In this document: piece by piece, positions 49,260-52,489 of the stretch
How positions within the stretch are numbered: the first letter of the stretch is position 1
Layout: each line of letters opens with the position of its first letter
NCBI RefSeq assembly: GCF_030812595.1
Contig: NZ_JAUSSZ010000003.1
Span: forward strand, 307,505-371,504
Length of the DNA stretch: 64,000 nucleotides
Direction: 5' to 3'
DNA from: Arthrobacter bambusae
GTDB lineage: Bacteria > Actinomycetota > Actinomycetes > Actinomycetales > Micrococcaceae
Notes under the pieces: generated by a model
The model's input: only the letters and a program-made list of their open reading frames with translations
What the model was told of the DNA's origin: nothing
The model's database searches: none
Made by a program: the position numbers and the translations under genes

Positions 49260-49295
49260 CCTTTTCGCGCTGCGGCATTGCCGCGAATGAAAGCG

Positions 49296-49338
49296 AGAGA
49301 GGTCGGCCGTCCCCTTGGGAGGCCGACCTTCTCTTTTT
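49296..49338 (+). terminator. Rho-independent terminator after hpt
   Basis: AGAGAGGTCGGCC pairs with GGCCGACC-T-TCTCT with one bulge and a 12-base loop, followed by a TTTTT tract. It lies 37 bases after the hpt stop. Confidence 0.9.
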
Positions 49339-49426
49339 AACTCATTCGGGGAGGGCTGGCGATGTTGGGCAATTCGCGTGTTAGCGTTCAGCTCATTAGT
49401 TGCTTACTTGACCTGTGGGGGGCATT

Positions 49427-50032
49427 TTGAGTATCGATTCTGTTTCGGCGTCAAAGCGGGGAAAAGTCCGGGCGCTTCTGGCTGGTGGATTGGTCCTGGG
49501 GGTCGGCGCCGCAGCGGTGTTGGCCGCGTGGAATGACTCCGAGTTCGCCACCGGAACATTCACGGCGGGCACCTTCAATCTTCAAGGAAGCACCGACGGG
49601 ACGTCCTATTCGGAGCACTCTGCTTCCCCTGGAGCCGCCCTGCCATTCACCCTCAACCCATCCAACCTGGCGCAAGGGGACACTGTCTACGCACCCTTCG
49701 CGGTTCGGTTGGCGGCCAATACCAGCACGGGGTCAACGGTCACGGTACACACAGCCGCCGCCACCGGCTCGGTCGCGAACCTGAGCTTCGAGCTCGTTGA
49801 ACCCACTTCCTTCGGATGCTCCAGCGCCACTACGGGAACCCAATTGGTGCCCGCGGGTACCGCTCTCGACGGAACGCTGAGCGGAGTTACCTTCACGCTC
49901 AACGCCGGCAGCCCCCCGAGCGATCCTGGTGATGCGGTCTTCCTCTGCTTCAAAGTGACGGCGGCCACGGGCTTGGTCCAAGGGCAAAGCGGTACGGCGA
50001 CGTGGCAGTTCGCTGCGGCATCCACCTCCTGA
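49427..50032 (+). CDS. Secreted protein with SipW-dependent (TasA/CalY-type) leader
   Basis: This is a 201-residue predicted exported protein. The N-terminus is a basic region (ASKRGKVR), a hydrophobic core (ALLAGGLVLGVGAAAVLAAW) and then the alternate signal motif NDSEFATGTFTAGTF, which marks SipW-processed TasA/CalY-type proteins. The mature part is beta-rich, Ser/Thr/Gly-rich and has two cysteines (FGC and FLCF) that could pair. TTG 49427 has GGGGGG five bases before it, while a GTG at 49415 would be an alternative. It is the first gene of a five-gene cluster, with no homologue of known fold certain by eye. Confidence 0.8.
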   Translation: MSIDSVSASKRGKVRALLAGGLVLGVGAAAVLAAWNDSEFATGTFTAGTFNLQGSTDGTSYSEHSASPGAALPFTLNPSNLAQGDTVYAPFAVRLAANTSTGSTVTVHTAAATGSVANLSFELVEPTSFGCSSATTGTQLVPAGTALDGTLSGVTFTLNAGSPPSDPGDAVFLCFKVTAATGLVQGQSGTATWQFAAASTS

Positions 50033-50041
50033 CCAGCCACG

Positions 50042-50674
50042 ATGACCGGACGCAGGGCGACTCGTCGGGCTGAGGGGGGCCGACAACGCTTCCTTCGTGT
50101 GCGCGCCATCTTGGCCGGAGGCCTGGTTCTCGGTGTTGGGTGCACATTCACGCTCGCTGCCTGGAACGATTCAGAGTTCGCGGCGGGAACGTTCACGGCC
50201 AGCTCGTTCCAGCTCGAATCCTCCGTCAATTCAGGAGGCGCATGGCTGGCGCACCCCACTTCGGGATCTGGCGCCACCATGGCGTTCAATGCGGCAGGAA
50301 TGTCACCAAGCACCGTCAACTACGCTCCCATCTGGATCCGGACTACGGCGGGATCGCTTTCCGGGACTTTGACTCTCCAGGGAGCCAGCAACGACAACGC
50401 CGCCTTGGCCGCTGCCTTGGCCTATCGCGTGGTCCGGTACTCGTCCGGAACGTGCGACTCGAGCCAGTTCACGGCGGGTGCCAGCTACCTCGTCGGTACC
50501 TCGGCATCGAAGGTGCCACTGACGACGTCCGGCGCCGCAACAGCGGTGGCCGCGAACTCGCTGAGCCCTACGCAGCTGTGCTTTGAGATCACCATGCTTG
50601 CCTCGGCGGACAATTCCCTGCAGGGGACCAACGTGACGGCAACGTGGGAAATCAGGGGGGCGTCGGACTCGTGA
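50042..50674 (+). CDS. Second SipW-dependent-type secreted protein, paralogue of the first
   Basis: This is a 210-residue predicted exported protein sharing the leader of the upstream gene almost exactly (AILAGGLVLGVG, then WNDSEFAAGTFTAS). The mature part is a Ser/Thr/Ala-rich beta-type domain with two cysteines (GTC and LCFE) at similar relative places. This suggests tandem duplication. It starts 9 bases after the preceding stop and overlaps the signal peptidase start as GTGA. It is probably a fibre or matrix subunit (inference). Confidence 0.8.
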   Translation: MTGRRATRRAEGGRQRFLRVRAILAGGLVLGVGCTFTLAAWNDSEFAAGTFTASSFQLESSVNSGGAWLAHPTSGSGATMAFNAAGMSPSTVNYAPIWIRTTAGSLSGTLTLQGASNDNAALAAALAYRVVRYSSGTCDSSQFTAGASYLVGTSASKVPLTTSGAATAVAANSLSPTQLCFEITMLASADNSLQGTNVTATWEIRGASDS

Positions 50675-51255
50675 CTGTGGTGCTGAAGCGGGCCGCGTCC
50701 CGACCACGGGGAGCCAGCGACCGCCGGCGCCTCGGCGACGCCGTGCGCGAGACGTTGCTTAACCTCGCGGCGGTCGGCGGCGCGATCTGCATACTCCTGA
50801 CCTTGGCGGCAGTGTTTTTCCACATCACGCTCATCATGTTCAAGACCGGCTCGATGTCTCCGACTATCCCTGCTGGATCGCTCGCGGTGGTGCGGGAGGT
50901 CCCGGTGTCGGAGGTCCGGATCGGAGACATTGTGACCGTGGACCGGCCGGGGCAGTTGCCCGTCACCCACCGGGTCACATCCTCCCGGATGATCGACGGC
51001 ACCACCGCCGTCCTCACGCTCAAAGGCGACGCCAACCGGGTGGAGGATCCCGCACCGTACACCGTCTCCAAAGTCCGCACGGTGCTCTATTCGGTGCCGG
51101 GTATTGCCTACCTCGTTGCGGGAGCATCGAACCCCTGGGTGCTCGGCGGCACCACGCTTGCCGTCTCCGCCTTGGTGACCTGGGCGCTGTGGCCCCGGCA
51201 GGAGAGCGCCCGTCCGGAGAGAGACCAGCGGGCGCGGCACAAGGCGAGGGCATGA
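50671..51255 (+). CDS. sipW: Signal peptidase I, ER/archaeal-type (SipW-like)
   Basis: This 194-residue membrane protease is predicted to cut the leaders of the flanking exported proteins. It has an N-terminal helix (about 31-52) followed by the nucleophile motif GSMSPTI (Ser61), then THRV (His100, where ordinary bacterial enzymes have Lys) and GDANRVED (Asp120). The Ser/His/Asp set is the ER-type S26B arrangement seen in Bacillus SipW. A second helix lies at about 148-174, followed by a basic tail. The GTG start overlaps the previous stop. Confidence 0.88.
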   Translation: MTVVLKRAASRPRGASDRRRLGDAVRETLLNLAAVGGAICILLTLAAVFFHITLIMFKTGSMSPTIPAGSLAVVREVPVSEVRIGDIVTVDRPGQLPVTHRVTSSRMIDGTTAVLTLKGDANRVEDPAPYTVSKVRTVLYSVPGIAYLVAGASNPWVLGGTTLAVSALVTWALWPRQESARPERDQRARHKARA

Positions 51256-51965
51256 CCGGCTACCTAAGCCGCCGGGGTCACGCGGCAACAGCCACCTTGG
51301 TATCGCTGAGTCTGCTGGGCGCCGCTCCGGCGTCTGCCGCCGCAGACGGGCCGGACCTGATCCTGACGCACGGCGGCAACAATCCGCCTACCGTCCTTGC
51401 GCCCGGATCGACCAACAGGTGGAGTATCGGGGTGACCACCAGGGCAGTGACGCTGCGCGATTTGAGGCTGCGGCTGCTTGCGGAGGGCGCGCTCGCGCAG
51501 TTTGACGCTTCCGACCCGGCGGCGCGACTAGTCACGGTGAGCGTCCGAAGCTGCGCCACCGCCTGGACGGCCGAGGCCTGCCGGTCCGGCGAAAAGACCG
51601 TCATCCCGGCGACGACCCTTTCCGCTTTGGGCGGCACAACCAGTCTTGCGAACCCCGACGGCGGAATCCCTGCCGGCGTCGAACTGCTGCTTGAGGTGGC
51701 GCTTTCGCCGTCGGCGGGCAACAGCGCGCAGGGCCTTTCAGCCACAATTACCGCACGGGTTGATGCCGCGGGAGAGCCCGTGTCGGCGCTGGACATCCCC
51801 GCTGCCGGCCTCCCTGACACAGGATTCCGCCTCGGCATCTTTGCGCTTCTGGGCCTTGGTGCCGTCCTGGTGGGGGCTGTCGCGTCGAGGTTCGCCGGCG
51901 CCCGTGCCGTCGCCACCGCCGATCGAATCGTGCCCGCCCGTGATCCGGGTGGGGATCGATGCTAA
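51252..51965 (+). CDS. Secreted LPDTG-motif protein, possible sortase substrate
   Basis: This 237-residue protein begins with an ordinary Sec signal peptide ending in APASAA (about 30), unlike its neighbours. It has a beta-rich middle (residues 35-180), then LPDTG (187-191), a hydrophobic helix (about 194-211) and a 26-residue Arg-containing tail. Tails of sortase substrates are normally only a few residues, so this could instead be a C-terminal membrane anchor. No sortase gene lies in the window. ATG 51252 overlaps the sipW stop as ATGA. It may display or tether the fibre proteins (inference). Confidence 0.78.
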   Translation: MTGYLSRRGHAATATLVSLSLLGAAPASAAADGPDLILTHGGNNPPTVLAPGSTNRWSIGVTTRAVTLRDLRLRLLAEGALAQFDASDPAARLVTVSVRSCATAWTAEACRSGEKTVIPATTLSALGGTTSLANPDGGIPAGVELLLEVALSPSAGNSAQGLSATITARVDAAGEPVSALDIPAAGLPDTGFRLGIFALLGLGAVLVGAVASRFAGARAVATADRIVPARDPGGDRC

Positions 51966-52489
51966 GACCCCCGACGCCGCGCAGGCTAAGGTCGCTGCTC
52001 GCGGTGGCCGTGGTCGCGTCCGCTCTCTTGGTGGTCCCGGATGGAACCGGGACGACGGACGCGAGCTGGACCGCCTCCGAATTCGGCTCCGGAACACTGA
52101 AAGCGTTCAAGGTTCCGGCGCCCGTCATGATCAGCCCGTGCACTCTCAGCACGGGCTTTGCCGGGGCCGACCCCGTGATTACTGTTAACTGGCAGTTCCC
52201 CGCGGGAACCGGGTATGTGGCACCCGCCAACGTCAATTACTACGTAGCCAGCGGCGGGTTGCTTTCAAACCTGACTCCCGTGACCGTTGGAAGCAGCCTG
52301 GCCACCACGGGCCCAGTAAATGGGATATATACGACGCAGTTCAAGTCAGGCATCCTGAGCGGACTGCTCGGCGGATCCTACGGCGTCTATCTGCAGACGA
52401 AGGACGGCTCGGGGTGGGTCTCCACCCTGGCCACGGCAAACGCGTCCATGGGCCTGGCCGGCATCAACCCGGTATGTACTGTGCAGTAG
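51959..52489 (+). CDS. Third small exported protein of the cluster (SipW-type-like leader)
   Basis: This is a 176-residue protein. A basic start (RPPTPRRLRS) and a hydrophobic stretch (LLAVAVVASALLVV) are followed by TTDASWTASEFGSGTLKAF, which resembles the W..SEF..GT pattern of the two proteins above. Two cysteines, one of them near the C-terminus (NPVCTVQ), are present. The rest is Gly/Ser/Thr/Tyr-rich and probably beta-structured. It overlaps the preceding stop by 7 bases. It could be a capping or minor component. Confidence 0.76.
   Translation: MLRPPTPRRLRSLLAVAVVASALLVVPDGTGTTDASWTASEFGSGTLKAFKVPAPVMISPCTLSTGFAGADPVITVNWQFPAGTGYVAPANVNYYVASGGLLSNLTPVTVGSSLATTGPVNGIYTTQFKSGILSGLLGGSYGVYLQTKDGSGWVSTLATANASMGLAGINPVCTVQ

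Follow-up and report, generated by a model that had tools for sequence, protein, structure and literature searches.

A candidate SipW-processed, TasA-like surface fibre system with its own sorting-motif protein in Arthrobacter bambusae

The window analysed here is a stretch of 64,000 nucleotides from Arthrobacter bambusae (assembly GCF_030812595.1, contig NZ_JAUSSZ010000003.1, positions 307,505 to 371,504 of the forward strand), in which a block of five open reading frames (ORFs), named P1 to P5, occupies positions 49427-52489 on the forward strand. All five ORFs are complete and intact. Upstream of them lies the hpt terminator (49295..49340, forward strand), a hairpin followed by a T run with its core stem at 49317-49333. 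Its folding energy of -30.9 kcal/mol (z -5.42) was reached by 0 of 200 shuffled sequences, and the region holds 4 terminator-like sites against 2.6 expected. Behind the terminator the order is P1-P2-P3-P4-P5 and then ftsH. P1 and P2 are separated by 9 bases, the P2/P3 and P3/P4 pairs overlap by 4 bases each (GTGA and ATGA, respectively), and P4/P5 overlap by 7 bases (ATGCTAA). A sequence-only reading of this DNA had described five tightly coupled genes between hpt and ftsH behind a terminator, and the ORFs, overlaps and hairpin confirmed that description. The start codon of P1 is TTG, with an alternative GTG possible at 49415. No sigma-70-like promoter was found for the block, a search that is little informative in this bacterial group. 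Among the five proteins, only P3 gave a Pfam match above cut-off (S26).

P1 (49427..50032, forward strand) and P2 (50042..50674, forward strand) are the candidate fibre subunits. Both pass the NCBIfam model of SipW-dependent-type signal peptides, TIGR04088 (33.8 and 24.3 bits, respectively; cut-off 19), and profile comparison (99.8%) aligned P2 with the P1 family along its length, over 186 columns, which makes the two homologous. Two paralogous proteins with SipW-type leaders, as first proposed from the letters, are thus present. TIGR04088 matches all 71 members of the P1 alignment, the window's own included (E<=0.01), and the A. bambusae genome yielded this leader in three proteins only: P1, P2 and one camelysin encoded on contig 25. 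Cleavage of the P1 leader is likely to take place near A33/A34, and the hydrophobic residues W35, F40, F45 and F50 follow the site. Counted from the leader Trp, the alignment is hydrophobic at +5 in 71/71 members, at +10 in 68/71 and at +15 in 68/71, and hydrophobic in 0/71 at +1 to +4, +8, +9 and +12 to +14. P2-labelled ORFs carry a hydrophobic residue at Trp +10 in 86 of 96 cases (10 more lack the anchor), a count that includes some loci fetched twice. According to the part of PMC9674648 drawn on here, the donor strand of TasA comprises residues 28-38 with contacts at F29, I32 and F39; the distance from F29 to F39 is the same 10-residue step as Trp +10 in P1.

The AlphaFold2 (AF2) model of P1 has a predicted local distance difference test (pLDDT) value of 71.7 and forms a beta-sandwich, whose closest folds are FimG and the TasA fibre with moderate scores. 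The proposed likeness to TasA may hold at the level of predicted fold but not at the level of the family profile: neither P1 nor P2 matches the camelysin family PF12389 above the Pfam cut-off, and hence we do not file them as members of the TasA/camelysin family. In the P1 alignment, 11 of 71 members match PF12389 weakly (E<=0.1), the best at 0.004. A PDB sequence search with the P1, P4 and P5 profiles and the P1 leader returned no significant match to a solved fibre. In one source the relatives of P1 bear the name "predicted ribosomally synthesized peptide with SipW-like signal peptide", and this name would make P1 a secreted peptide natural product. Such a role is hardly credible for mature domains of about 165 residues with a beta-sandwich model, in a block where no modification enzyme was recognised.

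P3 (50671..51255, forward strand) is a SipW-like signal peptidase of the endoplasmic reticulum (ER)/archaeal type. It passes TIGR02228, the archaeal/ER-type signal peptidase model, with 59.6 bits (cut-off 51.85), and Ser61, His100 and Asp120 are invariant across 7 aligned SipW proteins, in agreement with the ER-type Ser/His/Asp set read from the sequence at the outset. Because its score against the Bacillus SipW equivalog model NF046067 is far under the cut-off (36.7 bits versus 190), P3 is termed SipW-like and not a Bacillus SipW equivalog.

P5 (51959..52489, forward strand) combines a SipW-like leader and donor-like segment with an Ig (immunoglobulin)/FN3-like domain. Compared with the P1 profile, P5 aligns in the leader region only (hhalign 96.1%, E 3.2e-9), which bears out the description of a third small exported protein with a related leader; TIGR04088 does not match P5. 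A hydrophobic residue is found at Trp +10 in 26 of 31 P5 proteins (4 more lack the anchor). The AF2 model (pLDDT 81.2) retrieved generic Ig/FN3 folds, and TapA is absent among the listed fold matches, which excludes nothing. Pfam gave scattered weak single matches only for P5, and the PDB sequence search gave no significant match. From the model, P5 is predicted to have the published TapA layout, in which a SipW-type leader and donor-like segment precede an Ig-like domain that is complete in itself, and it is therefore our candidate for a TapA-like initiator.

P4 (51252..51965, forward strand) is a secreted protein and a likely sortase-attached anchor. By eye, its C-terminus shows LPDTG followed by a hydrophobic stretch and then a basic tail, so that the LPDTG protein of the sequence-only reading was found as described. 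As the window's P4 does not match the curated LPXTG model TIGR01167 (cut-off 15.9), we call it LPXTG-like; two of four P4-type relatives pass the model (L188 with 19.7 and L112 with 17.0). P4 was also considered as a paralogue of P1, and this was ruled out (hhalign 0.5%).

Conservation of the block was examined in two samples. A P3 search of 198 genomes of the genus gave matches in 145 (E<=0.001), among them 34 close orthologues (>=57% identity). All 31 close-orthologue loci that were scanned by domain contain two subunits, SipW and P5, and 24 of them contain P4. In the second sample, genome contigs were searched with the P1-family alignment and the best 80 of 243 relatives were kept, all of which carry P1 by selection; some lie on short contigs, and 17/80 are genus loci that were also fetched separately. 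The 80 loci come from at least 17 named actinobacterial genera, including Arthrobacter, Leifsonia, Microbacterium, Agreia, Brevibacterium, Brachybacterium, Nakamurella and Micromonospora. SipW was found in 79 of them, at least two subunits in 72, a P5-labelled ORF in 75, P4 in 62 and all of these in 53, where SipW and P4 were counted with domain-level profiles since fused ORFs carry both domains. Only 15 of the 80 loci adjoin hpt/ftsH or purA-type genes, and common surroundings therefore do not account for the co-conservation. The five genes are one block that is kept as a unit in many Actinomycetota, and the earlier view of them as a single unit is supported by the loci compared. The P1 family itself was detected in 39 of 248 sampled genomes of the order, from 15 of 85 genera.

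The recurrence of at least two subunit genes also bears on whether the subunits assemble at all. P1 and P2 might be SipW-exported monomers, either adhesins or camelysin-like enzymes, which never polymerise, with P4 and P5 as independent surface proteins on a common export route. We regard this as unlikely, since the second subunit gene is retained in those 72 loci, no HExxH motif occurs in P1 or P2, and P1, P2 and P5 all carry the hydrophobic donor-like segment with its fixed spacing.

The sorting motif of P4 is widely kept as well. Of 63 P4 ORFs in the 80 GTDB loci plus the window, 62 have a loose L-x-x-T/S/A-G motif close to the end, a count that includes the broken L128, which is the same locus as L084 of genome G141; the commonest forms are LADTG, LPDTG, LPATG and LPRTG. 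Of the 34 genus carriers, 24 P4 tails were read, no P4 was found in 7 and 3 were not scanned. A strict motif stands at the sorting position in 22 of the 24 tails. One of the others, that of G080, was unreadable because the chosen frame runs on. The other belongs to G141 (L084/L128, on an Arthrobacter cupressi contig), in which SPDTV replaces LADTG and an LAATG lies inside the hydrophobic stretch, not at the sorting position. A PF04203 sortase was detected in 33 of these 34 genus carriers of close orthologues, and G141 is the only carrier without a sortase detectable by two models. The joint loss of sortase and P4 motif in G141 fits a link between P4 and sortase; as a single case it is suggestive only.

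SipW and P4 are encoded by a single ORF in 33 of the 80 loci. One SipW-P4 fusion, in genome G187 (L129), contains a SipW 86% identical to that of the window. Together with the genus loci, 37 distinct SipW fusions were collected, 35 with P4 and 2 with P5. All have a hydrophobic stretch at the joint followed by an AxA-like site (39/39 rows, two of which are repeats; the AxA check was loose). Judged from these sequences, the fused SipW-P4 or SipW-P5 chain could be cut apart at the joint.

Taken as a whole, we consider it reasonably probable that the five-gene block makes a SipW-processed, TasA-like surface fibre that a sortase-type anchor would likely tie to the wall. What the analysis shows are the genes with their leaders, catalytic residues and sorting motif, their joint conservation, the fusions and the predicted folds; the fibre is likely, and the anchor step is less certain. 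P1 and P2 would leave the cell via Sec, and P3 would remove their leaders, which would free an N-terminal segment of the form W-x4-F-x4-F-x4-F. The freed segment would insert into the groove left open in the next subunit, leading to polymerisation by donor-strand exchange. P5, with a donor segment on an already complete domain, could give but not take a strand, and would serve as the first or last member of the chain, in the way that TapA serves TasA. P4, produced beside SipW or in the same chain, would be cut free at the signal peptide of P4 itself; a sortase whose gene lies elsewhere would link it to peptidoglycan, so that P4 holds the base of the fibre. The block may serve in biofilm formation, adhesion or cell-cell contact.

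The roles of the two accessory proteins might be distributed differently, with P5 as a tip adhesin or cargo and P4 as the assembly factor. In favour of this are the generic Ig/FN3 fold of P5 and the fusions with SipW, in which P4 takes part more often than any other element. However, P5 retains the subunit-type leader and donor-like segment, P4 by eye has an ordinary signal peptide and no donor-like segment, and SipW-P5 fusions also occur. We hold this arrangement to be rather unlikely and retain P5 as the candidate initiator and P4 as the candidate anchor. A broader proposal can be put forward only tentatively: the loci may represent a distinct class of actinobacterial fimbriae, in which two-subunit TasA-like fibres built by donor-strand exchange are started by P5 and covalently locked to peptidoglycan by P4, and in many genera the protease and the anchor would be made as a single polyprotein that is cut at an internal leader. 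If this were true, the SipW-anchor polyprotein would couple export, assembly start and wall attachment one to one. Conserved in actinobacteria, equipped with a sorting-motif protein and often with that protein and the protease in one chain, such a system would bring the biology of matrix fibres into a second large Gram-positive phylum and would make it simple to test how fibres of this kind are held on the cell.

The chromosomal setting of the block varies within the genus. Among the 34 genus blocks, 10 lie at hpt/ftsH, 16 at purA and 8 elsewhere; the block of G187 adjoins ftsH, with hpt about 16 kb from ftsH. The hpt-ftsH interval ranges from 168 bp to 16 kb in the genus. In 113 paired genomes it was below 500 bp in 47, 500-1000 bp in 6, 1-3 kb in 45, 3-4 kb in 6 and longer in 9; with fewer than 500 bp in those 47 genomes, the block is no constant part of hpt-ftsH. 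Nine other hpt-ftsH intervals (L211-L218 and L220; 1.2-12.2 kb) encode none of the five proteins, and six close relatives have short hpt-ftsH sites without the block. In a FastTree phylogeny of SipW and P1, the ten hpt/ftsH copies group in a single clade (support 0.958), and the 16 purA copies are set off from all others by one split (support 0.951). In G067, a scar between hpt and ftsH (L209, 610-885) contains about 120 bp resembling the P4 sorting region (83%) and 34 bp resembling the end of P5 (82%). Since G067 keeps scraps of both P4 and P5, the block was once there and was then deleted; this is the one loss at hpt-ftsH that has been shown. The initial description of the block as inserted at this site is thus too simple, given one clade of local copies and a deletion scar in a close relative. 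A mobile cassette that hopped into hpt-ftsH would account for the compact block, the block-free short sites in close relatives and the occurrence of at least three chromosomal settings within the genus. We do not favour this explanation and consider it improbable in view of the clade of hpt/ftsH copies, the separate purA copies and the loss recorded in G067; in addition, none of the ORFs at the block was recognised as a transposase, although no model search for one was made. In another genome, G145 (L081), tilS, ftsH, P1, P4 and P5 all align as fragments, a pattern that resembles sequencing errors of the assembly more than decay of the block.

Compared with known fibre systems, the block likely works, by analogy, like those of B. 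subtilis, B. cereus and C. perfringens. As far as the parts of PMC9674648 and PMC10151520 drawn on here describe it, B. subtilis tapA-sipW-tasA shares with it the SipW-type leaders and the dedicated signal peptidase. The B. subtilis subunit is a beta-sandwich with a donor-like segment at its N-terminus, as is predicted for P1, and its small partner couples a complete Ig-like domain to such a segment, as is predicted for P5. The window's block differs in having two subunits instead of one, an additional LPXTG-type protein and the order P1-P2-SipW-P4-P5, and it shows neither a PF12389 match nor a sequence match to TasA in the PDB search. B. cereus sipW-tasA-capP-calY is similar in its two subunits, SipW and assembly factor, and is described as sortase-independent in the excerpted text of PMC13082335, where CapP, unlike P5, has an N-domain with a predicted helical region and a disordered C-domain. 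C. perfringens sipW-bsaABCRSD likewise has a filament-forming SipW-dependent subunit and accessory exported proteins; according to the text available from PMC7395162, however, BsaA lacks LPXTG, the adjacent sortase is dispensable and a two-component system lies in the operon. Chaperone-usher pili (FimG/FimA) resemble the block in the fold-level match of P1 and the proposed donor-strand exchange, but no chaperone or usher was recognised in the window's block and export is of the SipW type. The block sets itself apart by its conserved sorting-motif protein, the SipW fusion and its phylum. In the portions of these papers drawn on, an anchor protein like P4 is not described for the compared Bacillus and Clostridium fibre systems, and no such system appeared in the titles or openings among the listed literature matches joining SipW, TasA or camelysin with actinobacteria.

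The A. bambusae genome holds a second SipW locus (contig 25, L036 6550-8830), in which the PF12389 camelysin, a SipW and a leader-bearing small protein stand in a row. Unlike the window's block, it has one subunit, and no LPXTG protein was seen. The camelysin gave no significant match to a solved fibre in the PDB sequence search. The C-terminal part of the SipW at this locus resembles HPt, with a score of 23.4 bits that is slightly below the model's cut-off of 24.6, and the small protein, 159 aa long, carries a SipW-like leader on a small domain. A related block without P5, composed of one P2-like subunit, SipW and P4, was observed at ten genus loci (L109-L118). At L109 and L112, the two loci inspected for this, it is followed by a protein of 563-575 aa with a SipW-like leader, which matches the NCBIfam choice-of-anchor G model.
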